Assembly (NCBI GenBank): GCA_015490995.1
Contig: WFWT01000030.1
Location: 1-33,254 of the forward strand
Direction: 5' to 3'
From: Anaerolineae bacterium
Lineage (GTDB): Bacteria > Chloroflexota > Anaerolineae > JAADDB01
DNA length: 33,254 nucleotides
Part shown: one piece after another, positions 5,776-29,600 of the stretch
Numbering within the stretch: position 1 is the stretch's first letter
How the letters are laid out: every line of letters begins with the position of its first letter
Program-made: the position numbers and the translations under genes
The notes under the pieces: model-generated
Told to the model about the DNA's origin: nothing
Seen by the model: the letters and a program-made list of their open reading frames with translations, nothing else
Databases searched by the model: none

Positions 5776-5778
5776 CGT

Positions 5779-7170: not shown

Positions 7171-7186
7171 TGAGCAAACGTGCTCA
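7171..7186. promoter_or_regulatory. Palindrome TGAGCA-N4-TGCTCA between the two importer cassettes
   Basis: A perfect 6-bp inverted repeat with a 4-bp centre lies immediately after the stop of the upstream permease and about 70 bp before the CUT1 binding-protein gene. On the - strand it could form a small hairpin, but no run of U follows, so an intrinsic terminator is unlikely. Its symmetry and size also suit a regulator operator. Neither role is proven. Confidence 0.3.
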
Positions 7187-7984
7187 CTATCGTCGATCTC
7201 TTGCATCTCCGTACATCTTGCCACCCAAGAATGTCATTGCCAGGAAAGTCAACACTGACACATATACCAAGAAGGCAGATATTGCACTGGCTATCCGCAT
7301 ATCATTGCGAATCTGTTGAAACAGCTGCAACGGAAGGGTTTGAGCTGTAAAACCAGCAACCATGCTTGTCACCTCGAACTCACCGATGGAGATGGCGAAC
7401 ACCAACAGGGCACCAACCATGACTCCTGGCAGCACGTTAGGCACAATAACGTATCGCAAGCGCTGCCATAGATTGGCACCCAGGCTGGCCGCGGCTTCAG
7501 AAAGGGTACGTTCATCAATCGTCTGGAAACTGGCCAAGGTATTCCGGAACATAAAGGGAAAACCGATGAGCGCGTGGGCGACGATCACCATAAACACGCT
7601 ACCCGTGAGCGCAAGGGGCGGCCGAGAGAAGGCCTGCACCAGCGCGGTGCCCACAATGACCGGAGGGAAAATTAAGGGTAAAATCATGGAGACATTTCGC
7701 AGCCAGCGCCCCCCACGAGTGTCCAGGCGGTTGAGCGCGTATGCTGCCGGAATCGCGATCAGCGCGTCCAGCACCACCGCGCCGAAAGCTACCGTCAGGG
7801 AAACCATCAAAGCAGAATAGTTCCTCGGTCGCCGGATAATAGCTTCATACCACCGCAGGGTAAACCCCTGGGGCAAGATACCTTGCCAAAATTCACTAAA
7901 TGAAAAGATAACGGGCATAAGCAAGGGTACTAAAATGAACAGCACCAGAAACACAAAAATGATATGCTGAAGCAACCTCCTCAT
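7187..7984 (-). CDS. ABC transporter permease, PotC/CysW/ThiP-type superfamily
   Basis: A 265-aa inner-membrane subunit with about six hydrophobic segments, starting LLQHIIFVFLVLFILVPLLM. The EAA docking loop is SEAAASLGANLWQRLRYVIVP, in the form used by spermidine, Fe3+, phosphonate and sugar-phosphate importers rather than by CUT1 sugar importers. It starts 4 bp after the partner permease, and its GGAGG ribosome-binding site overlaps the end of that gene (8-nt spacing to the ATG at 7984), so translation is coupled. Base composition in this gene and its partner is noticeably richer in A+T than in the flanking genes. Together with the lipoprotein at 8911-10053 and the ATPase at 10175-11239 it makes a complete importer. 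Confidence 0.92.
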   Translation of the reverse strand: MRRLLQHIIFVFLVLFILVPLLMPVIFSFSEFWQGILPQGFTLRWYEAIIRRPRNYSALMVSLTVAFGAVVLDALIAIPAAYALNRLDTRGGRWLRNVSMILPLIFPPVIVGTALVQAFSRPPLALTGSVFMVIVAHALIGFPFMFRNTLASFQTIDERTLSEAAASLGANLWQRLRYVIVPNVLPGVMVGALLVFAISIGEFEVTSMVAGFTAQTLPLQLFQQIRNDMRIASAISAFLVYVSVLTFLAMTFLGGKMYGDARDRR

Positions 7985-7988
7985 TAAT

Positions 7989-8834
7989 CTATCCTCCAGG
8001 ACTTACAACGTGCCTCAAGCGATTTAGGGTGAACAACAACAAGCTTATGATCAGGATTAGCGTAACAGCCAAAGCACCTGCCTGGGGAAGATTATATGTG
8101 GACTCAGATGTGTGATAATATATCTGTACGGACAACAGGTTCTTTTCTCCACCAACCAAGGCCAACACCGTACCGAAAGCCCCCATCATTCCGGCGAATT
8201 GAATACTTAATCCGGCCAAAAATCCTGGTGCCAATACCGGAATAATCACGTAACGCCAGACCTGAAACGTGTTTGCTCCCAGGTTGCGGGCTGCCTCCAC
8301 CAAACTTCGATCCAAGTTAAGAAAAATAGCAGCCATGGTAAGAGCCATCAACGGAATCTGGTAGAATGCATACACCACAACCAAACCGTACCAAGAATAA
8401 ACATCAAAGTACACAGATCTAGGTAAGCCAAATATCTGACGAACCAACAAGTTGATTACTCCATTGCGGCCAAGCAAAACAATGAACGAAAATGCTACCA
8501 CCAGTCCGGATAAGGTCAACGGCAAAGAATACAGGGAAAGCAACAGGTTTCTGTATTTGGGAGAGATGTGAGAAGCAATATACCCGACAAAGGTCCCTCC
8601 TACAGCACCCACCATGCTACAAGCTGTAGCAAACAGCAGACTGTTACGGATGGCCGTTCTAAACTGTGGTTGCGTGAACACATTTACATAATTCTGGAAA
8701 GTGAATTCACCTGTATTGTTGTCGAAGAAACTGCGAATTGCCATGTTAATCAAAGGATAAATCTCGAAAAACAACAAGAACCCGACAAACGGTACCAAAA
8801 ACACGTACTCTACTCGGGCTTTACGCCAAAACAT
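7989..8834 (-). CDS. ABC transporter permease, PotB/CysU-type superfamily
   Basis: The first of the two membrane subunits of the polyamine/iron/sugar-phosphate-type importer, 281 aa with about six transmembrane segments. The opening stretch EYVFLVPFVGFLLFFEIYPL is characteristic of PotB-like proteins. The EAA loop reads VEAARNLGANTFQVWRYVIIP. The ATG at 8834 has a GAGGAAAT ribosome-binding site. The gene uses many A/T-ending codons compared with the rest of the window, giving an estimated GC content below 50 percent by eye in parts. This could mean a different origin from the neighbouring genes, although the operon order is intact. A stem-loop in the 76-bp gap upstream separates it from the binding-protein gene. 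Confidence 0.92.
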   Translation of the reverse strand: MFWRKARVEYVFLVPFVGFLLFFEIYPLINMAIRSFFDNNTGEFTFQNYVNVFTQPQFRTAIRNSLLFATACSMVGAVGGTFVGYIASHISPKYRNLLLSLYSLPLTLSGLVVAFSFIVLLGRNGVINLLVRQIFGLPRSVYFDVYSWYGLVVVYAFYQIPLMALTMAAIFLNLDRSLVEAARNLGANTFQVWRYVIIPVLAPGFLAGLSIQFAGMMGAFGTVLALVGGEKNLLSVQIYYHTSESTYNLPQAGALAVTLILIISLLLFTLNRLRHVVSPGG

Positions 8835-8868
8835 GATAATTTCCTCACAAAATGCCCCATTGTACGGT

Positions 8869-8903
8869 TTGGGGTAGGGCGGTTTAATGCCACCCTACCC
8901 CAA
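8869..8903 (-). other. Stem-loop between the binding-protein and permease genes
   Basis: An 11-bp perfect stem (arms 8869-8879 and 8893-8903, sequence TTGGGGTAGGG on the + strand) with a 13-nt loop starts 8 nt after the stop codon of the binding-protein gene. No U-run follows on the - strand, so full termination is unlikely. Such hairpins after receptor genes commonly protect the upstream mRNA or cause partial termination, giving more receptor than permease. That role here is inferred from position. Confidence 0.6.
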
Positions 8904-8910
8904 GCCTGTG

Positions 8911-10053
8911 TTACTTCGCGCCGACAGCTTCGGCCCAAGCAGCTTTGAGGGCATCAGAGATGGCAGCGTCCTTCTCATAATCGATAAATACCACGTTCTT
9001 GTACGCCTCCGGCGGCGGGAACTTGGCCGCTATCTCCGGCGGCAACTCCACATCCGGATTCATCGGCGACACGAACGCCTTCGCATACAGCTGCTGCCCC
9101 TCCCCACACAGCAGGAACTCCAGGAACAACTTCGCCGTGTTCGGGTGAGGCGCGTTCCTCGCCGCCACCACTCCGCCGCCAGAAGCCACCGTTCCATCCT
9201 CGGGGATCACCACTTCCGCCGGTATGCCTAAATCCTCCTTCCACTTCAGCAAGTTGTAATCAAAGTTGATCAGTATCGCCACCTCACCTCGCTGGAACTT
9301 GCTCACATCGACCTTCGGATCCACCGACGCGATAATCCCGTTCTTGTGCAGCTCTGCCAAAAACTGTGCCCCGGCCTCGTAGTTGTACGGATCCCCAGAG
9401 ACCGCATACGCCGCTGCTTCTACCGTGTTAATCCCTGTTCCCGTCGCGCGCGGGTCCAAATAACTTACCAGCCCCTTGTACGCCGGATCGTTCAACTCTT
9501 TCCACGTCCGTGGCACCTTGTCCACCAGCGTCGTGTTCACTATCCACCCCAGCGTCCCCTTGTAAGCCGCATACCACACCGAACCGTCCTTACCCTCGCC
9601 CTTCTGACCTTCTGGCCACTTGTCCCAACAACTCACCTTGTAATCCAACGTCAACCCTTCCGACGCCAACTGCGCGGCGAACGCCGGCTTCAAATCCGCG
9701 ATGTCGTTCTTGGACGCGTTCTCCTCTCGCATCCGAGCCAGCACCACCGAAGATCCCATGTCAATGTCCTGTTGTCGAATGCCATACTTCTGCTCGAACG
9801 CTGCAAAAATCTCCCCATAATTCGCCCACGTCTCCGGCATCCCATACGAGTTAATCACTCCACCCTCTGCCTTTGCCGCCGCCACCAATTCCTCCAGGGG
9901 GCTCTTGGCCTTCTCCTCCTTCTCCTCCGCTGCCGGAGGCGCTACAGCCGCTGGTGTGGGCGTCGGTGTTGGCGTCGCCCGTGCACATCCTGCAACAACA
10001 AAGGCCACCACGAGCAGCACACCAAGCCCCAACCACTTGTGTCGGTTCCGCAT
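8911..10053 (-). CDS. Substrate-binding lipoprotein of an AfuA/PotD/FbpA-type ABC importer
   Basis: An extracytoplasmic receptor of 380 aa. A lipoprotein signal peptide ends in VAGC with the acylated Cys at residue 23, followed by a Thr-Pro/Ala-Pro/Glu-Lys linker to about residue 50. The mature domain has the type-II periplasmic fold signs of the Fe3+/thiamine/phosphonate/sugar-phosphate group: VINSYGMPETWANYGEIFAAF near the start, a GTLGWIVNTTLV segment in the hinge, TWKELNDPAYKG, and the second-lobe segment FQRGEVAILINFDY. Fe3+ receptors usually carry two adjacent Tyr ligands; I see no clear Tyr-Tyr pair, so iron is not favoured. Given the sugar kinase and dehydrogenase upstream, a sugar, polyol or sugar phosphate is more likely, as an inference. 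The ATG at 10053 is preceded by GGAGG with 8-nt spacing. A 121-bp gap separates it from the ATPase gene. Confidence 0.9.
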   Translation of the reverse strand: MRNRHKWLGLGVLLVVAFVVAGCARATPTPTPTPAAVAPPAAEEKEEKAKSPLEELVAAAKAEGGVINSYGMPETWANYGEIFAAFEQKYGIRQQDIDMGSSVVLARMREENASKNDIADLKPAFAAQLASEGLTLDYKVSCWDKWPEGQKGEGKDGSVWYAAYKGTLGWIVNTTLVDKVPRTWKELNDPAYKGLVSYLDPRATGTGINTVEAAAYAVSGDPYNYEAGAQFLAELHKNGIIASVDPKVDVSKFQRGEVAILINFDYNLLKWKEDLGIPAEVVIPEDGTVASGGGVVAARNAPHPNTAKLFLEFLLCGEGQQLYAKAFVSPMNPDVELPPEIAAKFPPPEAYKNVVFIDYEKDAAISDALKAAWAEAVGAK

Positions 10054-10174
10054 GGCTACTCCCTCCTTTTACTGCGCTTCCCTTTCACTGCATACGCCAA
10101 CAGGACACTTTGGCTGGACACCAACGCGCCTCAACTCAAGTGCTTGCCCCTTTCACCTCCTTTCCTGTCCTCCA

Positions 10175-11239
10175 TCACGGTGGGATCAGCACCCCGGCAT
10201 CAGGTGGAAAGTGGACATAAACACGGTCTCCTGGCCGCAGTGATGCGGCAGCATCGGCCGGAAGATCTACCTTTAAGGTCTGGCTTTCATCTGTGCGTAA
10301 GGTAACGCGCACCGTGGCTCCCAGGAACGTCAAGGGTTCCACCCGAGCGGGGATACGATTGTGGCCTGTCGGGATCTCTGCTTCCGCCGCAACGATGCCC
10401 ATAAATTCCGGGCGCACGCCCAAGATCGCCCGCGCGCCCGCAGACCACGAGGTCGCGTCTTCCACCTGAAAGCTGTATCGCCCCCAGCGGAACGTCCGGT
10501 CAGGCCCCACTTCCCCTTCAAACAGGTTCATGGTGCCCACAAAGGTGGCCACAAAAAGGGTTTGAGGCCGCGCGTACACTTCGGCGGGAGAACCAACCTG
10601 CTGGATCACGCCCTGATTCATCACCACTACCCGGTCCGAAATGGAAAGCGCCTCCTCCTGGTCATGCGTCACATAGATGGCCGTAATGCCCAACTGGGTT
10701 TGAATGCGCCGGATCTCCACTCGCAGTTCCTCGCGAATCTTGGCGTCCAACGCGGAGAGAGGTTCATCCAAGAGCAGAATCTTAGGCTCCTTGGCCAGCG
10801 CACGAGCTAGGGCTACCCGCTGCTGCTGTCCACCGGACAGCTGGCGGGGATACCGGTCTTCCAGCCCCTCCAGGTGCACCAGCTCAAGAAGCTCACGCAC
10901 CCGCCGTCGTTGCTGCTCTTTCGGCCGCTTTTGAATCATCAGTGGAAACGCGATATTTTGGGCCACCGTCATGTTGGGAAAAAGGGCATAGGCCTGAAAC
11001 ACCATACCTACATCCCGGCGCTCCGGTGGGACGTCGTTGACCCGCTGGCCGTACAGGATGATGTCCCCCTCATCGGGACGCTCAAACCCGGCAATACACC
11101 GCAGAATGGTGGTCTTCCCGCACCCTGAAGGGCCGAGCAAGGAGACGAATTCTCCCTCATTAACCGTTAAATTGAAATTCTGCACGGCCACCACAGAGCC
11201 AAAGCGTTTGGTGACATTGACCAACCGTAGCGACTCCAT
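10175..11239 (-). CDS. ABC importer ATPase, CysA/PotA/UgpC type with TOBE domain
   Basis: The cytoplasmic ATP-hydrolysing subunit, 354 aa. Motifs in order: Walker [10 protein letters not shown] (residues 36-44), Q-loop [12 protein letters not shown] signature [15 protein letters not shown], Walker [13 protein letters not shown], and H-loop THDQEEAL. About residues 240-354 form a C-terminal TOBE/MalK-type regulatory region ([25 protein letters not shown]). The tail is the right length for importers of the polyamine/iron/sugar group. It is the only importer ATPase in the window and lies upstream of two complete permease pairs. It probably serves the adjacent pair (7187-8834). It may also power the CUT1 pair (4029-5775), as shared ATPases such as MsiK do elsewhere; this is an inference. 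A GTGGAG ribosome-binding site lies 8 nt before the ATG. Confidence 0.95.
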
Positions 11240-11287
11240 CGCTGGAACTCCACCGACCCGGATGCTAGGTTCCCGATGGCAAACAAT

Positions 11288-12088
11288 CTAATCCATCCAC
11301 GCGCCCCCGTTGACGTTAATGGCCTCACCGGTAATGAAGTCGGACAGGGAAGACGCCAGGAAGACCACCACCTTGGCCACGTCCTCTGGCGTTTCGATGC
11401 GCCCCAGCGGGGTATCCTGGACGTACAGCTCCCGCACCGCCTCTGGCGTCGTGCCCCGCAGCTCTGCTTCCCAGCGCAACTCCCGCTCCTGCATGCCGGT
11501 GGCCACGTACCCGGGACATACCGCGTTCACCGTGATCTTGTAAGGTGCCAGCTCTCCGGCCATTGCCTGCGTTAACCCCACCACTGCGAACTTGGACGCC
11601 ACGTAATGGGCCAGGAAGGGCGCGTTGCCACGTTTGCCCGCCATCGACGCAATGTTGATGATCTTTCCCCGCAGTTCACCGCCCTGCATGAAGTCCTGTT
11701 GCATCATCACGCGCGCCACGACTTGGGAACAGAGGAAGGTGCCCTTGGCGTTCACGTTCATGTTGAAGTCCCAATCCTCTTCTGTGAGCTCCCAGAACCG
11801 GTTCATGGTGGACACGCCCGCATTGTTTACCCAAATGTCCAGCCGGCGCCCCCATTCCCGAATGGCGTCCACCACCTGCACGATGTGATCTCGGCGGGTG
11901 ACATCCAGTCGCCAAGCCCGAGCAACGCCGCCGGCCGCCTCTATCAGGCGCACCGTCTCCTGTGCGCCTTCCTCGTTAATGTCCGTCACCGCTACCCGTG
12001 CACCCTCCGCGGCCAGGGCCTGCGCAATCGCCCGCCCAATTCCGGCCCCTGCACCCGTCACCCCCGCCACACGACCCGCCAGTAACAT
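11288..12088 (-). CDS. SDR-family NAD(P)-dependent oxidoreductase
   Basis: A classical short-chain dehydrogenase/reductase, 266 aa, predicted to interconvert an alcohol and a ketone on a sugar or polyol. The cofactor-binding motif TGAGAGIG is at about residues 11-18, the structural NNAG motif is present, and the catalytic Ser-Tyr-Lys set is visible (IINIAS; YVASK). Asp at the end of the second strand (VAVTDIN) suggests NAD rather than NADP. The C-terminal GEAINVNGGAWMD is typical of sugar-alcohol and glucose-dehydrogenase-like members. I chose the ATG at 12088 because GGAGG (12097-12101) lies 8 nt upstream; a GTG at 12097 overlaps that site. It sits between the FGGY kinase and the ABC ATPase with gaps of 64 and 48 bp, so it is probably in the same transcript. 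Confidence 0.93.
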   Translation of the reverse strand: MLLAGRVAGVTGAGAGIGRAIAQALAAEGARVAVTDINEEGAQETVRLIEAAGGVARAWRLDVTRRDHIVQVVDAIREWGRRLDIWVNNAGVSTMNRFWELTEEDWDFNMNVNAKGTFLCSQVVARVMMQQDFMQGGELRGKIINIASMAGKRGNAPFLAHYVASKFAVVGLTQAMAGELAPYKITVNAVCPGYVATGMQERELRWEAELRGTTPEAVRELYVQDTPLGRIETPEDVAKVVVFLASSLSDFITGEAINVNGGAWMD

Positions 12089-12152
12089 TTCCACCACCTC
12101 CTCCTCACTTTCCAGCAGATTGGGTCCCCACCCTGACCCACGCCCCCACTCC

Positions 12153-13646
12153 TCATGTGTCTGTCGTCACCCGGTATAGCTGGGGATACAGATCCTTCAC
12201 CCGCTCGTAGATCTCTCGGTAAATGCGGAACAGACGCTGATAACGCCGGTGGTAATCCATGTTGGGCTCGGTGATAGCCGCAATGGTGATATACTTCTCG
12301 ATTTCGGCCCAGTCCTGGAAAAGCCCCACTCCCATGCCGGCAATAAAGGCCGCCCCTAGGCTGGATCCGGGGTGTTCCGCAATCTGGTGTAACCGCAAGC
12401 CCAGCACGTCGGCGGTGATCTGCTTCCACAGACGACTGCGCGCGCCACCGTTGGTGACCATGGTGCGCGTCGGACGGTGCCCTCGCTCCGCCATGACCTC
12501 CAGATGGTGCTGGAAACCGTAAGCAATGCCCTCCAGAATGGCCCTGTACATGTGCCCGCGCGTGTGCCCCAGGGTCAGGCCAAAAAAGACACCGCGGGCC
12601 AAGGGATCGTTGATGGGGGTCTTCTCTCCCAGAAAATAGGGAAGAAGGATGAGCCCGTCGGACCCCGGGGGCACCTGCTCCCCTTCCGCGTCCAAGGCCG
12701 GATAATCCAGCTCCGGCGCGAAGGTGTTGCGGAACCACTTAATAATGGAGCCGCTGGCCGCCATACAACCGTTCAGCAGGTACTGCCCCGGCACCACATG
12801 GTAGTCAATGTAGAGCCGCGGATCCGGGGCCAGTTCGTCCAGCACATACAAAATATCCCCCGCGCCCCCCAGTTTGACGAGGAGATCGCCCTGTTGGCGT
12901 AGCCCTGCAGAGAAGGCAGAGGCCACATGGTCTGCAGAGCCCGCGACCACAGGTGTACCGACCTGCAACCCCGTGTGCGCGGCCGCCTCCGGAGTAACCC
13001 GGCCAATGACGTCGCTGGGCCGATGTACGGTGCCCAACCAGGACCGATCGATGCGCGCCAGAGCCAGGAGATCATCCGCCCAGTCGTAGCGGTGCATGTC
13101 AAAGAGTCCGCTTTCCAGGGCCCAGTTCTGCTCGCAGGAGAACTCACCCGTCAGGCGATAGTTAATGAAGTCATAAGACCCCAGCACCTTGCACGCTTGC
13201 GCCATTACCTCCGGTTCATGGCGCCACAACCACAGGAGTTTAGGACCGACGCTCTGCTGGGTAATGGCGCTGCCCGTGCGGTGGAGAATCGCCTCCTCAT
13301 CGGTTTGGGCCCTGAAATCCTCGATCTCCTGGTGGGCACGAGCATCGTTCTGCTGAATGCTGGGGCGCAGCACACGCCCCTCTTTGTCCAGCAGAACTAC
13401 GGTGGGCACCATCCCGCTCACTCCCACCGCCGCGATCTCTTCGGGCTGAAAGCCGCGCGCCCAGAGGTCCCGACACACACGACCCACGTTATCCCACCAC
13501 TGGTTCGCGTCCTCCTCCGCCCACCCAGGGTGCGGGGACAACAAAGTGCTTCCCGCGGATGTCTCCGCCAGAATATGCCCTTCTGTGTCAATAAGGACGG
13601 CCTTAGTAGCCGTGGTCCCAATGTCAATACCAAGCAGGTACGGCAC
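12153..13646 (-). CDS. FGGY-family carbohydrate kinase (xylulokinase-like)
   Basis: An ATP-dependent sugar or polyol kinase of 497 aa, the family's normal size. The N-terminal phosphate-binding motif GIDIGTTATKAVLID is at residues 6-20. The catalytic Asp is in the segment VAGSADHVASAF (about residue 250). The second-domain segment GILYVLD/AASGSIIKWF and the C-terminal NGGARS adenine-site motif (about residue 415) are present. True xylulokinases carry MHG after the first-domain SGQ; here the corresponding site reads GVSGMVPTVVLLD. The substrate is therefore probably not D-xylulose, and a generic name is safer. The start is a GTG at 13646 with AAGGAGG 6 nt upstream. The gene lies between the BtpA-family gene (32 bp) and the SDR gene (64 bp). 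Together with the DeoR regulator this suggests phosphorylation of the sugar taken in by the importers. Confidence 0.93.
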   Translation of the reverse strand: MPYLLGIDIGTTATKAVLIDTEGHILAETSAGSTLLSPHPGWAEEDANQWWDNVGRVCRDLWARGFQPEEIAAVGVSGMVPTVVLLDKEGRVLRPSIQQNDARAHQEIEDFRAQTDEEAILHRTGSAITQQSVGPKLLWLWRHEPEVMAQACKVLGSYDFINYRLTGEFSCEQNWALESGLFDMHRYDWADDLLALARIDRSWLGTVHRPSDVIGRVTPEAAAHTGLQVGTPVVAGSADHVASAFSAGLRQQGDLLVKLGGAGDILYVLDELAPDPRLYIDYHVVPGQYLLNGCMAASGSIIKWFRNTFAPELDYPALDAEGEQVPPGSDGLILLPYFLGEKTPINDPLARGVFFGLTLGHTRGHMYRAILEGIAYGFQHHLEVMAERGHRPTRTMVTNGGARSRLWKQITADVLGLRLHQIAEHPGSSLGAAFIAGMGVGLFQDWAEIEKYITIAAITEPNMDYHRRYQRLFRIYREIYERVKDLYPQLYRVTTDT

Positions 13647-13678
13647 GGTTTGCCTCCTTCACCTCTCAGTCCCCGACC

Positions 13679-14494
13679 TCATCCCCCACGCCGAATTTCT
13701 CTCACCACCTCCATAAACGCCTTCACACGTTCCGGATCGACCGGATTCCACGTGTAGCCATCCACCTTCAAGCTGGAACCGACGATTACCCCGTCCGCGT
13801 ACTGCAGGAACGCGCGGATGTTGCTGACTTTGGCACCGGTGTTCAGAAGAACGGGCACCGCGTTACCCACCGCCTCTTTAGCCTCCCGCACCCAGGAGAC
13901 ATCCGGCTCAGCGCCGGCCATCGGCCCGGACACGAGGATGGCGTCCACCAGAGTGGACACCACCGCGCTCTTCGCGCGCTGCCCCACAGACCGATCCCCC
14001 AGGGGGGAGGCAAACTCCGGGGTGATGTTAGCGAAAATGCGCACCGCCTCCGCGTCAATCTGACGGCGATAACGGTAAAGGGCGGCCGCGTCGGGAGCCC
14101 ACAACCCCATGTCGCTCTCGTACACCCCGGTAACGACCTCCCGGATGAACGCGGCCCCCGTGGCCTTCGCCACCGCCAGCGCGGCCATCGGGTCCCACAA
14201 GAAATCCACCCCAAAGGGGCGATCCGTAGGCCGGACTTCGGTGATCACACGGGTCATGACGGCCACGGCTTCTATACCCACGCGGAGGGCATAGGGCCTA
14301 TCGTCCTCGTTGCAGAATAGAATGCCGTCCACCCCACCGGCCAACAGGTGCTCCACGTCCGTCCGCACCCGCTCGATAATCCCCTCGACACCTGACGAAG
14401 GGTCGTAGCGCGGGGTGCCCGGCAAGGCCGGCAAGTGAGCCATCGCTATCACCGGCTTGGGTACACCGAACAACTCGACGAGAAGATCGCTCAT
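13679..14494 (-). CDS. BtpA/SgcQ-family TIM-barrel protein
   Basis: A 271-aa cytoplasmic protein recognisable as BtpA/SgcQ family from KPVIAMAHLPALPGTPRYD near the N-terminus, the VDGILFCNEDDRPY segment, FGVDFLWDPMAALAVAKATGAAFIREVV in the middle, and the C-terminal ADGVIVGSSLKVDG. The last resembles a phosphate-binding loop of TIM-barrel enzymes. The biochemical function of the family is unknown. In E. coli the member SgcQ is encoded in the sgc cluster with a DeoR-type regulator and sugar-handling genes, and this locus has a similar composition. The conserved acidic residues (FCNEDD, DFLWD) could form an active site, so a role as isomerase, aldolase or epimerase on a sugar phosphate is a guess. 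The ATG at 14494 follows GGAGG by 6 nt. Spacing is 66 bp from deoR and 32 bp to the kinase. Confidence 0.92.
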   Translation of the reverse strand: MSDLLVELFGVPKPVIAMAHLPALPGTPRYDPSSGVEGIIERVRTDVEHLLAGGVDGILFCNEDDRPYALRVGIEAVAVMTRVITEVRPTDRPFGVDFLWDPMAALAVAKATGAAFIREVVTGVYESDMGLWAPDAAALYRYRRQIDAEAVRIFANITPEFASPLGDRSVGQRAKSAVVSTLVDAILVSGPMAGAEPDVSWVREAKEAVGNAVPVLLNTGAKVSNIRAFLQYADGVIVGSSLKVDGYTWNPVDPERVKAFMEVVREIRRGG

Positions 14495-14511
14495 TGCCTG
14501 CCTCCTACATC

Positions 14512-14550
14512 CCCCCTACCCGAAGCCCTACCGGGCCGGAGGTAGCGGGG
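14512..14550 (-). other. Possible stem-loop between deoR and the BtpA-family gene
   Basis: CCCC-CTACC (14512-14520) can pair with GGTAG-C-GGGG (14541-14550) with one bulged base, around a GC-rich loop that can itself pair (CCGG/CCGG). It lies 11 nt after the deoR stop on the - strand. No U-run follows. It may attenuate or separate the regulator message from the catabolic genes. The evidence is only base complementarity. Confidence 0.3.
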
Positions 14551-14560
14551 TGAAGTGATG

Positions 14561-15322
14561 TCACACCGCGATAACCTGAATGCCCTGCTCCTGCAGCCGG
14601 GCAATGATCGCCGAATCAGCATTACTGTCCGTGATCAACGTGTCCATGGCCGAGAGAGGGGCTACCGCCGCGAAGGCCACCCGCCCCAGCTTGCTGCTGT
14701 CCGTCACCACAATACACTCCTTCGCCGAACGCAACATCGCCCGTTTGACCTGCGCGTCCTCCAGGTTGTACTCGGTCAACCCCGCTTCCAGGTCCAATCC
14801 CCCAATGCCGAGGAAGAGCTTGTCCACATACAACTCCTGAAAAACCCGCTCCGCCAGGTGACCGACCAGCGAAAGTTCCCCCGGCCGCAAGATTCCCCCT
14901 GTCAAAATGAGTCGGTTCTGGGGCACGTTGGCCAACACGTTGGCGATGTGCAGACTCGGGGTCACAATGGTCAGGTTACGTACCTTTTCCAAACGGCGGG
15001 CGATCTCCAGCGTCGTGGTTCCCACATCCAACGCGATGCTGTCCCCGTCGTGGATCAGGGCTACAGCCGCCTCGGCAATGCGCTGTTTCTCCTCCACCTG
15101 TTGCCCGCTGCGCACCAGAAAAGGAGGCTCATAACTTCGCCCCCGCGCGCTCACCGCCCCTCCATGGACCCGTCGTAACAGCCCCCGCCGCTCCAAGGCC
15201 GCCAGATCCCGGCGCACCGTCATCTCTGAAACCCCAAACTGCCTGCACAGCTCGGCCACGGTGATGGCGCCTTTCTGGTCCAGGAGCATAAGAATGTGTT
15301 GACGGCGCTCTTCGGCCAGCAC
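14561..15322 (-). CDS. DeoR/GlpR-family transcriptional regulator
   Basis: A sugar-phosphate-responsive repressor type, 253 aa. The N-terminal DeoR helix-turn-helix reads RRQHILMLLDQKGAITVAELCRQFGVSEMTVRRDLAALERRGLLRRVHGGA. The C-terminal DeoRC sensor domain has the expected segments DGDSIALDVGTTTLEIARRL, LILTGGILRPGELSLVG and KLFLGIGGLDLEAGLTE, and it ends with VAPLSAMDTLITDS. An in-frame ATG at 15484 would add 54 unrelated residues. I chose the GTG at 15322 because AAAGGAG lies 5 nt upstream, the family's length is then matched, and a good promoter falls between the two candidates. It is the first gene of the leftward sugar block and is likely to repress it, and itself, until a phosphorylated intermediate appears. 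This follows family precedent. Confidence 0.94.
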   Translation of the reverse strand: MLAEERRQHILMLLDQKGAITVAELCRQFGVSEMTVRRDLAALERRGLLRRVHGGAVSARGRSYEPPFLVRSGQQVEEKQRIAEAAVALIHDGDSIALDVGTTTLEIARRLEKVRNLTIVTPSLHIANVLANVPQNRLILTGGILRPGELSLVGHLAERVFQELYVDKLFLGIGGLDLEAGLTEYNLEDAQVKRAMLRSAKECIVVTDSSKLGRVAFAAVAPLSAMDTLITDSNADSAIIARLQEQGIQVIAV

Positions 15323-15366
15323 GGGCACTCCTTTCGTTGGCGAGGGGGATGTTTGTTTGTGTTCTA

Positions 15367-15396
15367 ATAGTACACTTTTTTTGTTCGTTCTGTCAA
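15367..15396 (-). promoter_or_regulatory. Sigma70-type promoter of the deoR-led operon
   Basis: On the - strand a perfect -35 TTGACA (15396-15391) is followed after 18 bp by TACTAT (15372-15367), which matches 4 of 6 of the -10 consensus. Transcription would start near 15360, giving a leader of about 38 nt that includes the AAAGGAG site for the GTG at 15322. The region is strikingly AT-rich against its surroundings. Repeats of the TTTGT...GTTC kind flank the -10 and could be the DeoR operator. Confidence 0.7.
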
Positions 15397-15525
15397 ATCC
15401 GCGAACGCTACCTCGGCCTGTTTCGCCTTTGCCGGGGCAGCCTACCGGCCGCCTCTGAGGACACGGATGAAACTGATTGCCCAACGGTCATCGTTTACCC
15501 CTCCGGCGCTCGCGTGTCTGGGGAT

Positions 15526-15584: not shown

Positions 15585-18392
15585 ATGTTCATGGCCCGTG
15601 TGCGGTCGGAGGGAATGACCGAGCAAACGTTCGAAACCCTACGCCCCAGACCCCGGCGATATGCCCTGGCCGTGAGTTGTCTGCTTATCGGGTGGGTTGC
15701 GCTTCTGTGGGCCGCACACCTCGGGTGGCACCCTCCCCTTAGGCTCCCTTCCACCCCTGCGCTGACATTACATCCCCGCGCGGGGGTCAACCTGGCACCG
15801 GCTGCCTTGGACAACCCTGCACTGGTGCGTGCCCTGGCCAACGCCGGAATACGTTGGGTACGGGTGGAGATGTCATGGGCGGAGGTGGAGCCTGCACCCG
15901 GTATGTATCGCTGGGCGACCTGGGATGCCCGGCTTACCCGACTGAGACGCCTGGATATCACGCCCGTCCTGGTGCTCAACACCAGTCCTGCCTGGGCGCG
16001 CGCTGCAGTGGACCGGAATCTCCCCACCGCGCCACCGGCACGCCCGGAGGATTTTGCCCGTTTTGCCGCGGCCGTAGCGCAGCGCTACAGCACCCTTGTC
16101 CGGTATTACCAGATCTGGGACGAGCCGAACATCGCGCCTCACTGGGGCAACCGTGAGGCGGATCCTTTAGGGTACCTGCGCCTCCTCCAGGCGGCGGCCT
16201 CTGCCCTGCGCGAGAACGATCCCGACGCCGTCATTCTCAGCGCGGCGCTGGCCCCCACGCTAGACCCCGGTCGGGTGAACTACAATGACCTGAATTATCT
16301 GGAAGCCCTCTACCGGTTGGGCGCTCAGGTCTGGTTCGATGTCCTGGCCTGGCAGGGGTATGGGTTTGACCGTCCCCCGGAGGATCCCCCTGCAGCCGAC
16401 CGGTTAAATTTCCGTCGCTGGGAACTTGCCAGGGCTATCATGCAGCGTTATGGGGACGAAGCCACTGCCCTCTGGCTCACAGGGTTTGGGTGGAACGCCA
16501 CTCTCACCGCGTCTACCACCCCCTGGAAGAGGGTTCATCCCGACGAGCAGGCCGACTACCTTCGCCGGGCTTTCGCCTGGGTGGAAGCTTACGCTCCCTG
16601 GGTGGGACCTATGTTCTGGGTGCACGCGTACCCGGCAGCACCCTCCACCGATTTACGCTGGGGCTTTGCCCTTTGGGATCCTGACGGGACCCCACGCGGG
16701 GTTTGGCGCAGCCTGGTTTCTCAGGCCGCCGCCATGGTCCTCCCTCCGGGACAACATCCATTTCCCCTTCCCTGCCCGTTAATGCCCTTCCAATGCCGTG
16801 AACCCGACCGCCCCATCAGCTATCCGGTAGTCTTGAACAGGGCCCAAGGACCGGTGACCATTCCCTTCCGGGGCACAGGCATTGTGCTGGAGGTGGCAGC
16901 CGGTCCTCACTGGCAAACCATCTGGGTGCAGGTAGACGGTCAACCGGCTTCCGCGCTTCCTCGAGACGGAAACGGTCGCGCGTACTTGAACCTCTACCGC
17001 CCTCGCGGCACTTCCGTGCGCGTGCTTGTGACACGCGATCTTCCCTACGGGGACCACACTCTCACCCTCATCCCCGGGCCCGGAGATCCGGTTTGGCCCC
17101 TCGTTCGGCTGATCGTTCTGGGACCGGATCAACAGCGTCCCTGGTTGCGGGGGCTGCCCTTCTTGCTGGTGGGCATCATCGCACTGGCAGTGGGTTGGCG
17201 GCTCATGTCGTCACCCCCTACCTTGCGGATCCCTTTCCCGCCCCCCGCGATAGGGGGGCTTTTCCTGGTGGTAGCTCTGATACCTTTCACCGAACGGCTG
17301 GTGCGCGTGGGCAACACAACGTACGTGCTGCCTGAAGTGGCCTTGCTGGCCACCGGACTGGTAGGAACGGGGTACGCGCTGTTCCGTTGGGCTCATCGCG
17401 ACACGTGGCCTGTGTGGACCGTGACCTTGCCCGCGCGCCGGTCCTTGCTCTTTCTTACCCTGGTGGTGGCTGCGATGATTGTGGGATTAACCCAGGCCCC
17501 CCAGGTCGGACCGGGACTCACCGCGCTGCGAGCCCAGGTGCTCTTTCCGGCGGCGCTTTTCGTGCTCTGTCGTGGTCTGCCGGCACCACCCAGGACCCGA
17601 GCGGTATATGCCCTGCTCTGTGGTATGGCCGTGCTGGCCTTCTGGGCTTTGGGGGACGTGCTCGGAGGGCGTGCCGTGTGGCCGGAGGGCTTACCTCGGG
17701 CACGGGCGTTCTTCGGGTCCCCTAACCATTTGGCACTGGTACTGGTGCGCGGTGTCCCCTTTGCGTTGTTGATAGCGATGCGGCCCCATAGCCGGTGGGT
17801 AGGGGGAGCACTCAGCGCGCTCCTGCTCGCGGCCTTGCTGGCTACCGGTTCCCGAGCCGCGTGGGGTCTAGCCCTCCCTGCCGCATTACTGGCCCTGAGC
17901 TGGCCCGGCCGGCACCGGCCCGGCCTGATCGCGGCCGCAGGGGCGATCGGCGTCGGGGTCCTTCTCTTCCTGGCGCGGGACACTGCATCGTGGCAACAAC
18001 GATGGTATATCTGGGGAGGCGTGCTGCGCTGGATAAGCGATCGCCCCTGGGTGGGGGGAGGTCTAGGCCAGTTTCCGTACGTGTACCCTCATTACGCGTT
18101 GCCTGAAGCGTGGAGGGAGCCCCTCCTCTACCACGCGCACAACGGCTTGCTCACCACCGCTGCGGTGTTGGGTGTGCCAGCAGCCCTCGTGCTCGCCTGG
18201 TGGGTAGGTCACGCCCTCAGCGCCTCCCCGCAGGATTGGGTGGCCCGGGGCGCACGGGCCTCTCTGTGGGCCGGTGTGGCCTTCGGCCTGGTAGACGCTT
18301 TCTGGGCCCTGAACGACCTGGCCTACCTAAGCGCGCTCGCCTTGGCCTTCATATCCCCACCCCCCTCCACAAAAGAGCCCATCCACAGGTGA
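15585..18392 (+). CDS. Glycosidase-like barrel fused to an O-antigen ligase/polymerase (Wzy/WaaL-like) membrane domain
   Basis: A 935-aa membrane protein. After one N-terminal transmembrane segment (about residues 27-48) comes a clan-A-like (beta/alpha)8 glycosidase domain, about residues 60-385. Its acid/base motif is QIWDEPN (E180), where NEP is usual. At the place of the nucleophile, usually TEFGW, it reads TGFGW (Gly300). A beta-sandwich-like stretch (about 410-510) follows. From about 520 there are ten or more hydrophobic segments with O-antigen-ligase marks: GSPNHLA, ATGSRAAWG, the DRPWVGGGLGQF loop, and the HAHNGLL motif (H850, H852). WaaL/Wzy proteins join or polymerise lipid-linked glycans outside the membrane. 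The glycosidase-like part may therefore bind glycan rather than cut it, as an inference. The start is uncertain: ATG 15585 (AAGGGA 5 nt upstream) or ATG 15615 (GGAGG close by). No glycan-synthesis genes flank it directly. Confidence 0.85.
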   Translation: MFMARVRSEGMTEQTFETLRPRPRRYALAVSCLLIGWVALLWAAHLGWHPPLRLPSTPALTLHPRAGVNLAPAALDNPALVRALANAGIRWVRVEMSWAEVEPAPGMYRWATWDARLTRLRRLDITPVLVLNTSPAWARAAVDRNLPTAPPARPEDFARFAAAVAQRYSTLVRYYQIWDEPNIAPHWGNREADPLGYLRLLQAAASALRENDPDAVILSAALAPTLDPGRVNYNDLNYLEALYRLGAQVWFDVLAWQGYGFDRPPEDPPAADRLNFRRWELARAIMQRYGDEATALWLTGFGWNATLTASTTPWKRVHPDEQADYLRRAFAWVEAYAPWVGPMFWVHAYPAAPSTDLRWGFALWDPDGTPRGVWRSLVSQAAAMVLPPGQHPFPLPCPLMPFQCREPDRPISYPVVLNRAQGPVTIPFRGTGIVLEVAAGPHWQTIWVQVDGQPASALPRDGNGRAYLNLYRPRGTSVRVLVTRDLPYGDHTLTLIPGPGDPVWPLVRLIVLGPDQQRPWLRGLPFLLVGIIALAVGWRLMSSPPTLRIPFPPPAIGGLFLVVALIPFTERLVRVGNTTYVLPEVALLATGLVGTGYALFRWAHRDTWPVWTVTLPARRSLLFLTLVVAAMIVGLTQAPQVGPGLTALRAQVLFPAALFVLCRGLPAPPRTRAVYALLCGMAVLAFWALGDVLGGRAVWPEGLPRARAFFGSPNHLALVLVRGVPFALLIAMRPHSRWVGGALSALLLAALLATGSRAAWGLALPAALLALSWPGRHRPGLIAAAGAIGVGVLLFLARDTASWQQRWYIWGGVLRWISDRPWVGGGLGQFPYVYPHYALPEAWREPLLYHAHNGLLTTAAVLGVPAALVLAWWVGHALSASPQDWVARGARASLWAGVAFGLVDAFWALNDLAYLSALALAFISPPPSTKEPIHR

Positions 18393-23614: not shown

Positions 23615-26600
23615 ATGGGGGAAGGCGCTGTGCACAGGATTTCACGGCTATGCGGCCGGCATTCGGCCTGGCTTCTGAGCGCCCTATTCCTGATCACCCT
23701 CGGTACCGTGGTCTTGGCACTGGCCCGCGGCCTCCGCCCTCAACCCCAGCACACCATTTTCGTGGGAGTAGGAGGCAGTGCTCTCGTGGCTGCCCTGGTC
23801 GCGACGGGGGTATACGCCCGTTCCCTTGCCCCATCACCCTTACCGACCACCTCCCGCTGGTCACCCCGAGTTACGCTCATCGCCCTCTTCGCCCTTCTCC
23901 TGATAGCCGCGATCACCCGGGGGTATCGCATCAACGCTATACCGGCCGGCCTCTGGCTTGACGAGACCGACATCGCCTTGCAGGCGTTGGAGATTCTTGC
24001 GGGCGCGCGGCCTATGCCGTGGGAGGTGGCCCGTCTTGAGGTACCTTGGCTTTACCACTATTATGTAGCCCTCTTTTATAAACTCTTCGGCCCAGGTTAT
24101 CTCACCGTCAAGATGCCTCATCTCCTCATCAGCGTCCTCACCGCCGGTGCCCTGTTTCTCCTGGCTCGCGAGTGGCTCTCACCTTGGGGCGCGGTGCTCA
24201 CGACCGTTGCCTGGAGCACAATGCGGTGGTCACTGAACATGAGCCGATGGGGCCACGCCAATACCCTGACCCTCTTTTGGTATTGTACTGTGCTCTGGCT
24301 CCTGTGGCGAGGTCTCCACTCGAGACACACGCGCTGGTGGGTGCTCACCGGCCTTGCACTAGGACTCAGCCAGTACGGATATCAGGCCACCCGCTCCCTG
24401 GTAGTGGTGGTGGCTTTATTTCTCGCCTATTGGTTGTGGACCCTTTCCCCTCCCCGGAGACAAGTGCTACGACGGGTAGGTCTTCTCTGGGGCGCCTTCA
24501 CGCTGGTGTACGCGCCCTTGGCCCTCACTTATCTGGCCGAGCCGAACCTTTTCCTGGAACGGTCACGGGCCATTAGCATCTTTAATCCGCTTTTCACTCC
24601 CGACCCGTGGGTTGCGTTGAGGAGCAACGTGGGCAAATACTTGGGCATGCTACACTACGTGGGAGACCCCAATGGCCGCCACAACATCCCCGGATGGCCT
24701 ATGCTCGATCCCATCCTGGGAGGGTTGGTGGTGCTAGGGTTGGGCCGCGTGCTGGCCCACCCTCGACGTCCGGCGCACGTCGCGCTACTATTATGGCTTG
24801 CCGCGTTTCTAACGGCCGGCATTCTCACCACCGAAGCCCCCAACACTTTTCGCGTGTACGGCCTTACCCCTGCCCTTGCCCTGCTGGCAGGCTTGGGGCT
24901 GGATACGCTGGCTGCCGCGCCGTTCCTACCACGGCCCTGGCCTATTCTCACCACACTGATCGTGCTGGCCGCGGCAGTGAACCTCTACGTGTTCTTCGGT
25001 GTCCAGGCCCAGCACCCGGCAGTGGTAGGGCAGTTTAACGTGGGGCCGACTCGCGTGGGGCAGTATATCGCCACCCTTCCCGGCGAGGTGACCGTCTACC
25101 TGGACAGAGAATTTTGGGGATTTTCTCCCATCAAGGTCATTAACCCGGGCCGAGCGCTGACCCGTCTGAAAACGCCTGAGCACGTCCCGCCGCCCCCTGA
25201 TGAAACCGGCCCGGTCGTGTATGTGCTGGGCCGATATGGACACCGCCTCCTACCATGGCTACGTCAGTTGTACCCGGAGGCAAAGGTGTACCTCGATGTA
25301 ATGCCTCCTTACGGGTACGTGTTTACCGCGGTTTACATCGACGAAGCGCTTGTGAGCCGCCGTGGCCTCCTCGGCAGAAAGCGCACGCCGGCGGGCCAAG
25401 CTCGAGAGACCGTGGTCACGCTCGCCGCTTTGCCCCAAGATGTGGAGCCGATCACCTTGCGTGGCGGCCTGTACGTACCCAGGCCGGGAACGTACGAGCT
25501 ACGGGTGACAGGCGTGCAAAGGGCACTTATCCGTTTCCCGGGGCAAGCCCTGTCCTTGCCCTCAGCCCAACCCGCTGTCGTCACGCTACCCGAAGGTCTG
25601 GTCCCCGTACAGTTAACCCTGACCCTCTCCCCGGACGCCCGCCCCGCCTTTTTCTGGCGCGGCCCTCACACCCGCGAGTGGACCCCCATCCCCGACCGCG
25701 CGTGGTACCCGCTAGATATCCCGCTCGGCGGCCTGTTGGCCCTCTGGTACGAAGGGGGTGGCTTTCGCACCCCGCCGGTCCGAATTACCCACGCGAGCAC
25801 GTTGTACGCGGATAACGCAGGCGATCTGGCCACCGCGGCCATGCGCTGGATCGGCCAGATCCGAATTGAACAGGAAGGCACATATCGGTTCGGCCTTGCC
25901 TCTGATGACGGCTCCCGGCTCTGGATTGATGACCGCCTGGTGGTAGACAACTGGGGACTTCACCCGACCCGCTGGGTGGAAGGCGAGATACGACTCACTC
26001 CAGGGTGGCACACCGTGCGCATCGACTACGTGGACAACGGCGGCGCTTACTGGTTTGAGTGGCGATGGGTTCCTCCCGACGGTGTACCTCAACGGGTACC
26101 GGCCCGTCTCCTGCGATGGACACCCGCGGACGTACAACACGCACTCCGCCCCCCGCCAGACCCACCCCCCGTCCTCCGAGTGGTCGACACGACCGGTCAG
26201 GTGATAGATACGGTGCCGGTGGCCGCGTACGAACTGCAAGATCCCCGCTTTAACCGACCGGTAGGTGACGCGAACTTTCAGGGGTGGCCAATGAAGGTGA
26301 ACAACCAGATGTACGACCGGGGGATAGGCGTTTACGGGCCAGGTGAGTTGCGCTTCCGACTAAACGGCCGGTACCGTCGCTTTCGGGGAATGGTGGGTAT
26401 CGACCAGGACACGTACGGCGACGCGCACACCCAGGTCCAGATTTGGGGGGATGACCGTCTCTTGTGGGACAGTGGCCTCCTCCGAAAGTGGGACCCTGTC
26501 CGATTCTTTGAGGTGGACGTGACCGGGGTACAGGTCCTCATCCTGCGCCAGATTGAAGCCGGGCATTTTGAAGGCCGTGGGGACGGCGTGGATTGGATCG

Positions 26601-26620
26601 ACCCGGTCCTTGTGCCATAA
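23615..26620 (+). CDS. GT39-like membrane glycosyltransferase with C-terminal PA14 and NPCBM modules
   Basis: A 1001-aa protein in three parts. Residues 15-510 are a GT-C membrane domain of the PMT/ArnT type with about 11-13 transmembrane segments; the first large extracytoplasmic loop carries the catalytic-type Asp-Glu pair (GLWLDETD, D116/E117), and ARLEVPWLYHYYVALFYKLFG and SRWGHANTLTLF are typical family segments. Such enzymes transfer a sugar from a polyprenyl-phosphate donor. About 600-700 is a beta-rich linker. About 725-840 is a PA14 module (GTYRFGLASDDGSRLWIDDRLVVDNW), and about 855-1000 an NPCBM module (DRGIGVYGPGELRFRLNG; DVTGVQVLILRQIEAG), both predicted carbohydrate-binding and outside the cell. 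The ATG at 23615 has only a weak ribosome-binding site; a GTG at 23630 is an alternative. A TACAAT at 23589-23594 may be its -10. Confidence 0.9.
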   Translation: MGEGAVHRISRLCGRHSAWLLSALFLITLGTVVLALARGLRPQPQHTIFVGVGGSALVAALVATGVYARSLAPSPLPTTSRWSPRVTLIALFALLLIAAITRGYRINAIPAGLWLDETDIALQALEILAGARPMPWEVARLEVPWLYHYYVALFYKLFGPGYLTVKMPHLLISVLTAGALFLLAREWLSPWGAVLTTVAWSTMRWSLNMSRWGHANTLTLFWYCTVLWLLWRGLHSRHTRWWVLTGLALGLSQYGYQATRSLVVVVALFLAYWLWTLSPPRRQVLRRVGLLWGAFTLVYAPLALTYLAEPNLFLERSRAISIFNPLFTPDPWVALRSNVGKYLGMLHYVGDPNGRHNIPGWPMLDPILGGLVVLGLGRVLAHPRRPAHVALLLWLAAFLTAGILTTEAPNTFRVYGLTPALALLAGLGLDTLAAAPFLPRPWPILTTLIVLAAAVNLYVFFGVQAQHPAVVGQFNVGPTRVGQYIATLPGEVTVYLDREFWGFSPIKVINPGRALTRLKTPEHVPPPPDETGPVVYVLGRYGHRLLPWLRQLYPEAKVYLDVMPPYGYVFTAVYIDEALVSRRGLLGRKRTPAGQARETVVTLAALPQDVEPITLRGGLYVPRPGTYELRVTGVQRALIRFPGQALSLPSAQPAVVTLPEGLVPVQLTLTLSPDARPAFFWRGPHTREWTPIPDRAWYPLDIPLGGLLALWYEGGGFRTPPVRITHASTLYADNAGDLATAAMRWIGQIRIEQEGTYRFGLASDDGSRLWIDDRLVVDNWGLHPTRWVEGEIRLTPGWHTVRIDYVDNGGAYWFEWRWVPPDGVPQRVPARLLRWTPADVQHALRPPPDPPPVLRVVDTTGQVIDTVPVAAYELQDPRFNRPVGDANFQGWPMKVNNQMYDRGIGVYGPGELRFRLNGRYRRFRGMVGIDQDTYGDAHTQVQIWGDDRLLWDSGLLRKWDPVRFFEVDVTGVQVLILRQIEAGHFEGRGDGVDWIDPVLVP

Positions 26621-26698: not shown

Positions 26699-29600
26699 TT
26701 AGGGCCGATGCACCGCCGGCAAGAAGAAACGGTGCACGGGAACCGGCGTCGGTGTGAGTGTTGGCGTAGGCGTGGGTGTCGGTGTCAGGGTAGCGGTCGG
26801 CGTCGGTGTGGGGGTTGGAGTTGGCGCCGGTGTGGGCGTAACCGGCAAGGGGAGCAACGTGTACCGCACCACGAGTTTCGGACGGAGGTCCGGGTTTTGT
26901 TTGTACTCCGACGAGGGGAGCCGGTATTCCACACTCCCTTCGTCCGCCCGCAACATGACACCGAAGTTGGCCGCCGGATTCTCGACCCACGCCTGAACCA
27001 TGCCCGGAATCCTCCAGGTAACATCCACGAAGGAACGAGGAATCACCTGTGTATCCTCCGGTGAGGTTTCGCGGTCCGATGGTCCGTTTGCGCCCGGCCG
27101 TTCCCAACGGACATCTCCCCCGTCAGCACCCTGGCTGGCCACGTACCAGGTAACCGTCTCTGGGTCCCAGGGACGGAGAAGGCGATACGCGCCCACGGTA
27201 AGAGGTGTGGTGCAGGGGAGGTACGGACAGGTCCCTGAGCGCAAGGTAAGCTCCGCGTCTGTGATCTGCACAGTGGGTGGTAGCAAGCTCAGGTCGAACC
27301 AGAACAGAATGGACTTCACGTCAAATTGTCGGGTCGCCTTCAACCGCAGCCAGGGCAGAGGCCCAATGGGCGGCGCCGTTTCATCACCTTGGTTGTAATT
27401 CTCGTCGGGCAAGTAGCGGTTGATGTACGTATCCACCATCCCTTCCCCCTGGAAGACCAGGGTATTGCCTACTATCTTAACTTGAGCGAACTCCGCGGAG
27501 GGGGTGGTGTAATCCTCGGAATCGGCCACCAGGAGGGTCTCAGGAAGGGCCGTCCCGTCGTTGTCCTGGAAGGCCAAGCTCAGGCCAACGGTACGTCCAT
27601 CGGCCAGGGGGAGCCCCAGGACGTCGTTAGGAAGGTAAATTTCCACGCTGTAGCCGTCGGTCAGAGAGCTCACTCCCACGGCGACGTCACTTGTGGGCAG
27701 CGCGTTCTCCCACACCTGTGCGTCTAAGGTGATGGTGTAAACCCGATCGCCCACGCCACCACCCTGCCCGTCCCCCTCCCCGTCCAGGCCGAGGATCACA
27801 GCGTCGCCCAGCAAGGGGTTGTCCGGGGTGGTAAGGCGTTCGTCCCACACCCGGATGCCCAGGTACAGGCCGTCCGGGTCCCACAACGCGCGCGCTTGAG
27901 CCTGCAGGTCGGTATCTCCGGAGGGGGCCTCGCCCAGCACCAGATCAGCCGAACGGGCAGTAACGGTGATCGCCGCGGGTACAGGCCAGTCTCCCAGGAA
28001 CCCATCCACGCTTAACGGCGCAGCCAGTTGAAGAGCGGTCAGTGTATTGGGAGGGCCGGCATACCCGAGGATCACCCCTCCCGGGCCGACCGCCCAGGCC
28101 GCACCCCCCTCCACCGCATCCACCGCGTAGAGGGCAGGAATGTCCGGGAAGCGTTCTACCGTCCACGTGCGTCCCCCATCGCTGGTTCGGCCCACCACAG
28201 CCCCATCATACGGGTCTACCGGCAGGAAAAGGTCGCACGCTTCTCCATCCCGCTGCTCTTCACAGAGCCCACCTGCCAGGTATCCTTCCCGCGCAGAGAT
28301 GAAGTCCACGTCGAAGATGTCGGTTAAGGCCAGCTGGGGATCCAGGGGGAGAAGGGTCCAATCTGCTTCGCTTGCCCCGCCCGATTCGGTGAACCAGATA
28401 ATGCCCGTTACCCCCACGGCCCAACCGATGTTCTCGTCCAGGAAGAAGATGTTCCACAGGTGACTGCCCCCGCGACCGGCCTGCAAGAGAATCTTGTTCC
28501 ACGTCTCGCCATTGTCCGGCGTGTAAAGAATGTGCCCGCCGCCACTGCCACGGCCCACCAGCCAGGCACGGGTACCCTGGGTTGCCACACCGTAAATAGG
28601 AATCGCGAAGGAGGGCTTGCTTTTACATCCCGGCTCGTACCAGTTGAAACATCGGTACTGCCAGCTTTGTCCGTAATCGACCGTGTTCCAAACGCGACCA
28701 CTCTGCCCGCCGGCCCACCCAATGCCGTTAGGCTGCAGGTCCACCCGCGTGATCCAGCGGGCTTCAGGCGGGTTCGGTGGCAATCCAATCCACGTCTGTC
28801 CCCCGTCGACCGTGTAAAACACCCGTCCTAACCGGCCCACCACAACGCCACGCTGTGCGTCGGCGAAGTCAATGCCCATCATTTCCAGCACATCCCCTTG
28901 GGCGGGTGGAGGCAACACTTGAGGCCTCCACGTTTGTCCCCCATCCTGCGTGTGCAACACAATACCCCGGTATTCCCCTTCCGGGTTCAGGTCTTGGTTC
29001 ATGAACTTCTGACCCACAACCCACCCTCGTCGCTCGTCCACGAACTTAACATCCCAGAACTCCTGAATACCGCCCCCGGTGGGTTGGGTCCACGTCTGGC
29101 CGCCGTCGTCGGTGCGGATGACCTGCGCGGCCGCCCCCACCGCCCAGACACGACCTTGCAGGTCAACGGTGACCGCGTACAAGTGAGACTGGGCAGCAGG
29201 GGTCACCTCCTTAAACACTCCGGGCGCCTCTTCCCGCAACACCACTCCCTGATTTCCGACCACCCAGGCCAAACCATCCGGCCCAAACGTCACCGCGTTG
29301 AGCTGCACGGTGGTGGGCGAAGACACCGAACGCCACGTTTGTCCCCCATCGGTGGACCGAAGGATCAGCCCACTATCCCCCACCGCATATCCTGTCTGCC
29401 CATCCGGGGTCCACGCGATGCCCCGCAACGCGTATCCTCCCGTCCGCACAGTGCGCCAGGTGCGTCCTCCGTCCTGGGTGGTCAGGATCACGCCCTTGTG
29501 CCCGACGGCCCACCCACGGGACGCGTCGACAAACCACACATCATAAAGAGGAGTCGTCACGCCGGACTGACCCTCAACCCAGGTGGCACCCCCGTCCACG

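Follow-up and report, generated by a model that had tools for sequence, protein, structure and literature searches.

A GH39/PslG-like barrel with a degenerate catalytic site, fused to a predicted WaaL/Wzy-type glycan ligase or polymerase, recurs across Anaerolineae

The window (i.e., the whole 33,254-nt stretch of DNA analysed here, contig WFWT01000030.1 of an Anaerolineae genome) contains, at 15585-18392 on the plus strand, a single open frame for a 935-aa protein. An earlier note, made from the DNA letters alone, had described this protein as a glycosidase-like barrel joined to an O-antigen ligase/polymerase domain, with Gly in place of the catalytic nucleophile. The gene lies outside any exopolysaccharide cluster: a DeoR regulator, a sugar kinase, BtpA and ABC transport genes are found on one side, and a transketolase on the other. 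The stretch at 1667-15484 (minus strand) is devoted to sugar uptake and catabolism, with a galactokinase-like protein, an inositol monophosphatase, two ABC sugar transporters, an FGGY kinase, BtpA and the DeoR regulator. Further along, 23615-26620 (plus) encodes a 1001-aa membrane protein in which PA14 and NPCBM carbohydrate-binding domains come after a PMT_2 glycosyltransferase domain, i.e., a second glycan-transferase with binding modules in the same window. At 26699-30175 (minus) there is a 1158-aa protein that combines YCF48/BNR-type propeller repeats with a CBM9-like domain, and at 30596-33253 (plus) an 886-aa frame that runs off the window end, its sole Pfam match being a partial alpha-amylase catalytic domain (residues 290-390). 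The layout of the fusion gene is as follows.

15585..18392, plus strand: whole gene, 935-aa predicted pseudo-glycosidase/WaaL-Wzy fusion; single open frame, homologous fusions across the class
15651..15719, plus strand: N-terminal TM helix, residues 23-45; AlphaFold2 helix of moderate confidence, hydrophobic sequence
15762..16739, plus strand: GH39/PslG-like (beta/alpha)8 barrel, residues 60-385; phmmer match to PslG, 5e-20; pLDDT 93.4; Foldseek matches 5bx9, 9g17 and 4zn2, TM 0.77-0.80
16842..17129, plus strand: beta-sandwich between the barrel and the membrane domain, residues 420-515; model strands 424-512
17154..18353, plus strand: predicted WaaL/Wzy-type multi-helix GT-C membrane domain, residues 524-923; model helices, family profile match to 7tpg
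17811..18194, plus strand: Wzy_C core (PF04932), residues 743-870; 1.7e-13, 51.1 bits against a cut-off of 31.7

For the whole protein, AlphaFold2 gave a model with a mean pLDDT of 84.6. Full-length Foldseek comparisons gave poor rmsd values because domain placement varies, and the barrel was therefore modelled alone, with the higher confidence listed above. It is a clan GH-A (beta/alpha)8 barrel with its closest relatives in GH39. Among PDB sequences, the top phmmer match was PslG, the Pseudomonas aeruginosa GH39 endoglycosidase of Psl exopolysaccharide synthesis (4.9e-20, over residues 83-377); the best Foldseek matches of the barrel model were three PslG entries (E 2.6e-21), and other GH39 entries also match. 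The clan-A-like barrel of the earlier note thus stands, but the GH5 or GH42 membership that it had entertained was rejected, since the Pfam GH42 match falls below the cut-off and PslG/GH39 is best by both sequence and structure. An NCBIfam search with the 935-aa protein returned no matches.

The catalytic residues of PslG are Glu165 and Glu276 (PMC6813494). A 2025 structure shows Glu276 covalently trapped, and the -1 sugar is bound by Asn164, which corresponds to residue 179 here (PMC11912335). In the phmmer alignment, E180 and G300 fall on chain indices 139 and 250, which with an offset of 26 correspond to Glu165 and Glu276. The model agrees with this placement: G300 is near the C-terminal end of beta-7 (295-302) and E180 just past beta-4 (174-177), as clan GH-A expects, and no other Glu occupies the nucleophile site. 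The WDEPN motif with its acid/base Glu and the GGG codon at the nucleophile position, both pointed out previously, are therefore as described. For comparison, we used 76 canonical barrels (30 fused, 46 stand-alone) that share 36 near-invariant columns, as well as 106 fusions from Anaerolineae, hereafter “class fusions”. The canonical residues at seven site positions are ERNEEEW, and the window copy has A71, V130, D179, E180, H186, G300 and V346.

15972..15974, plus strand: Val130, in place of the canonical invariant Arg of beta-3 (Arg in 76/76 canonical barrels, 0/106 class fusions)
16119..16121, plus strand: Asp179, in place of the canonical Asn before the acid/base Glu (Asp in 100/106 class fusions)
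16122..16124, plus strand: Glu180, codon GAG, in WDEPN, acid/base position (phmmer alignment; kept in 77/106 class fusions)
16140..16142, plus strand: His186, in place of the canonical Glu (Glu in 74/76 canonical barrels, with 1 Asp and 1 Gly; 0/106 class fusions)
16482..16484, plus strand: Gly300, codon GGG, in LTGFGW, nucleophile position (phmmer alignment; Glu in 38/106 class fusions)
16620..16622, plus strand: Val346, in place of the canonical Trp after beta-8 (Trp in 73/75 canonical barrels with a residue there, 0/106 class fusions)

Loss of the canonical glycosidase site in the window copy is thus well supported at the level of sequence.

The C-terminal half has kept its own site. Wzy_C is matched above its curated cut-off, and the family profile of this half matches the WaaL structure 7tpg at 1.9e-12, in agreement with the WaaL/Wzy domain proposed in the earlier note. 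In WaaL, Arg191 and Arg265 bind phosphate and His313 activates the acceptor (PMC10920833). The two phosphate-binding Arg and the acceptor-activating His all have counterparts in the window protein. Ligase counts are based on 105 class fusions, since in the remaining one (L121) a contig end cuts the sequence after the barrel and the ligase half is unseen.

17853..17855, plus strand: Arg757, equivalent to WaaL Arg191 in the profile alignment (Arg in 69/105 class fusions, Lys in 18/105)
18000..18002, plus strand: Arg806, equivalent to WaaL Arg265 in the profile alignment (Arg in 105/105)
18138..18140, plus strand: His852, in HAHN, equivalent to WaaL His313 in the profile alignment (His in 105/105)

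R722 is also invariant (105/105). The best reading is that the protein is a predicted undecaprenyl-PP-dependent glycan ligase or polymerase of the WaaL/Wzy (GT-C) type. Given the N-terminal TM helix and the outward-facing active residues of WaaL, the barrel and beta-sandwich would be extracytoplasmic, on the same side as the membrane active site. Another Wzy_C is found in the same genome in a 1070-aa frame (G000:C132:12891-13442; L319, L320), possibly another fusion.

The degenerate barrel is not a peculiarity of one protein, as had first appeared. The genome that the window comes from encodes a second fusion, on contig C114, with WDQPN at the acid/base site and Gly at the nucleophile position, as well as stand-alone barrels (C83, C96 and C54) that keep both Glu. 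Relatives were found in 190 of 400 sampled phylum genomes; 60 regions were fetched from this sample, and 57 fusions were counted, including the window gene. Outside Anaerolineae, 30 of 32 fusions have Asn-Glu and Glu at the two sites, the exceptions being L062 (Asp-Glu/Glu) and L063 (Asp-Asp/Ala), whereas no Anaerolineae fusion among the 57 has the canonical set. When 298 class genomes were searched with a profile, 285 contained relatives, and the majority of the best matches listed are in frames of ~900-1150 aa. A further 80 class regions were fetched, the class fusions being drawn from the best-scoring matches. The fusion is present in most Anaerolineae genomes, with named relatives including Thermoflexales, Thermoflexus and Anaerolineaceae; most of the genomes are metagenome-assembled. 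A scan of named genomes relied on the pattern WD[EQ]PN, which is biased, and its residue counts were kept out of the main figures.

Because the first class profile was built from class fusions and could miss intact ones, the class was re-searched with an intact fusion from another class. With this query against the 298 class genomes, all 32 inspected barrels (the best 30 loci, a duplicate of one of them and one 1056-aa frame) have the full ERNEEEW site, and none is fused to a Wzy domain. The 1056-aa frame, L351 (G585:C173), has the full canonical site and no Wzy domain despite its length. The same search yielded three further fused matches, all degenerate. Hence, among the Anaerolineae barrels inspected, those that are fused are degenerate and those that are intact stand alone, with no exception, and none of the 109 class fusions examined (the 106 plus these three) has a canonical active site.

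The residues found at the catalytic positions vary widely. At the nucleophile position, the 106 class fusions have Glu (38), His (18), Gln (13), Asn (10), Ala (8), Ser (8), Gly (6), Asp (3) or Thr (2), and residue 300 is Pro, Tyr or Phe in further fusions from the named-genome scan and the added degenerate hits. The acid/base position has Glu (77), Gln (19), Asn (9) or Ala (1), and the residue before it is Asp (100), His (5) or Asn (1). Both Glu are present in 22 of the 106 and neither in 13. Even the 22 members with both Glu all lack Arg130, Asn179, Glu186 and Trp346; these 22 could retain some activity. Six of the 36 near-invariant columns have lost their conservation in the class fusions: R130, E186 and W346 (0% each), N179 (1%), E300 (36%) and E180 (73%). 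For the remaining columns the next lowest value is 82%, with most above 90%. The catalytic face accounts for five of the six lost columns, compared with 11 of the 36 overall (hypergeometric p = 0.006). The barrel itself is retained in all class fusions examined, where many of its columns stay near invariant, among them those of the aromatic residues W137, W178, W187, W297 and W303. Apart from Asp179, no new class-specific conserved polar residue was found in the cleft; Asp179 is likewise the only class-specific conserved acidic residue, with no class-conserved Asp or Glu substituting for residue 300.

In a tree built without the three columns for the nucleophile, the acid/base and the residue before it, the class fusions are split from the rest by a branch with SH-aLRT 91. 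At least 10 changes at the nucleophile and at least 12 at the acid/base position are needed on this tree, or, if losses occur without regain, ~10 and 13, respectively; these counts depend on trees from short searches with SH-aLRT support only. With a transferase site that is fixed and a glycosidase site that is free to change, the two halves of the protein have evolved under opposite constraints.

Genomic context also distinguishes the class. In the fetched stretches, a stand-alone barrel is found beside the fusion in 24 of 32 cases from other classes but in none of 24 from Anaerolineae. Named Anaerolineae often have a gene for an extracellular G5/propeller protein ahead of the fusion, and genes for an NAD-epimerase and a second Wzy_C protein after it; glycosyltransferases occur there too. 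A Macro-domain protein of ~184 aa is encoded directly downstream of the fusion in several Anaerolineae (L163:13033-13587, L170:12968-13519 and similar cases).

We lean toward the view that the barrel is a class-wide pseudo-glycosidase, kept as an extracytoplasmic module that would hold glycan for an undecaprenyl-PP-glycan ligase or polymerase. The ancestral fusion may, like the fusions of other Chloroflexota classes, have carried an endoglycosidase that was still active and that served chain trimming or quality control next to the transferase, much like PslG during the synthesis of Psl. To make Psl at the inner membrane, P. aeruginosa requires both PslG and its activity (PMC6813494, PMC9075953). 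In the Anaerolineae lineage, cutting could have become dispensable or harmful, or could have moved to separate stand-alone barrels. The fused barrel would then owe its retention to a cleft in which the growing or acceptor glycan could be bound uncut, with its end offered to the active site in the membrane. Much like a carbohydrate-binding module, the barrel might hold or orient donor or acceptor chains, or raise processivity; nothing specific was found in support of the length sensing suggested earlier. The sugar-contacting site itself has diverged, so any glycan would have to be bound elsewhere in the cleft. Also counting against a holding role, Glu is kept more often at position 180 than at position 300, which a purely non-catalytic domain does not require, some activity could persist in the 22 members with both Glu, and the window copy has a neighbourhood that is not one of exopolysaccharide synthesis. 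The main rival, which we consider unlikely but credible, is that the barrel is an inert relic or spacer that serves folding and the placement of linker and sandwich but binds no glycan. The columns that lost conservation are the canonical sugar-contacting residues, and the scarcity of new polar cleft residues fits this reading too. However, the barrel has been kept in every class fusion over deep divergence with many columns near invariant, and a mere spacer would be expected to undergo deletion or shrinkage in some lineages.

Continued catalysis by another route is disfavoured. It is improbable that the barrel is an active hydrolase of unassigned specificity whose nucleophile has moved: the fold prediction is confident and 22 members keep both Glu, but no acidic residue has taken over from residue 300, which is any of nine residue types in the 106 fusions alone. 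An enzyme with altered chemistry is a quite improbable alternative, for instance with Glu180 serving as general base in a glycosynthase-like single displacement on lipid-PP-glycans, or with the Asp179-Glu180 pair providing neighbouring-group catalysis. Glu180 and Asp179 are kept together in 54 of the 68 members without a nucleophile, and lipid-PP donors are available to the fused transferase. Engineered glycosynthases classically have Gly, Ala or Ser in place of the nucleophile; PDB entries 9fkh/9fkk, among the Foldseek results, are an E241G glycosynthase. Nevertheless, bulky His, Gln and Asn are commoner than Gly, Ala and Ser at position 300, Arg130, Glu186 and Trp346 are lost as well, the acid/base Glu has been lost ~13 times, and 13 members have neither Glu. 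We give very little credence to the more specific proposal that the fused barrels are natural glycosynthase-like transferases, in which Glu180 (with Asp179) would act as the base to add sugars from lipid-PP-glycans to a chain, in tandem with the protein's own membrane transferase. Finally, a chance mutation or sequencing error in an active enzyme was rejected. GGG is one base from GAG, and 38 homologues do have Glu, yet the two closest orthologues (47-56% identity) both have Ala, other site residues are lost too, and the pattern is class-wide.

A glycan-holding pseudo-glycosidase thus seems the best account of a glycosidase that was fused to a chain-building or chain-attaching enzyme and had its catalytic site repeatedly removed in one large class while the fold was kept. 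The recurrence of the dead barrel across most of the class suggests that it was retained for holding or positioning the chains on which the ligase or polymerase acts. Why exopolysaccharide clusters hold a glycosidase at all is an open question for PslG (PMC9075953). The pattern described here sets holding apart from cutting, and offers a way to test the question through swaps of intact and dead barrels. The earlier note knew of no description of such an arrangement, an apparently non-cleaving glycosidase fold on a glycan ligase or polymerase, and in the open-licence literature that we searched we likewise found none of this fusion. Annotation pipelines would miscount these fusions as glycoside hydrolases in Anaerolineae, a class often credited with carbohydrate breakdown.

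Several known systems are related to the fusion. Klotho and chitinase-like lectins are pseudo-glycosidases in which the fold is kept for binding after loss of a catalytic Glu, but they are animal proteins from other GH families and are not fused to a glycan-building enzyme. PslG, the best match of the barrel, is also a glycosidase of exopolysaccharide synthesis held at the inner membrane (PMC6813494, PMC9075953); unlike the window barrel, which is fused to a transferase and has lost its site, it is a separate protein with Glu165, Glu276 and Asn164 intact. The C-terminal half resembles WaaL (CAZy GT121, 7TPG) and inverting Wzy polymerases of clan GT-C1, to which the window protein adds the N-terminal glycosidase-fold domain; the likeness comes from a profile match and covers ligase or polymerase. 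WadA-type bimodular ligases (GT121 plus GT25) are an earlier example of a ligase with a second carbohydrate domain in the same chain (PMC10920833), although the partner in WadA is an active glycosyltransferase rather than an apparently dead glycosidase. No GT25 domain was found in the window protein, for which Pfam gave only Wzy_C and the weak GH42 match. The intact GH39-Wzy fusions of other Chloroflexota classes share the domain order of the window protein, and both halves are homologous to its own. These fusions retain the Glu/Arg/Asn/Glu/Glu/Glu/Trp site and usually lie beside a stand-alone barrel; Anaerolineae fusions do neither. In two cases outside the class (L077, frame from 711, minus strand; L079, frame from 1380, plus strand), a 419-aa stand-alone barrel with WHEPN and an Ala nucleophile is found near an intact fusion, and here the roles look reversed, with the neighbour dead and the fusion keeping its Glu.
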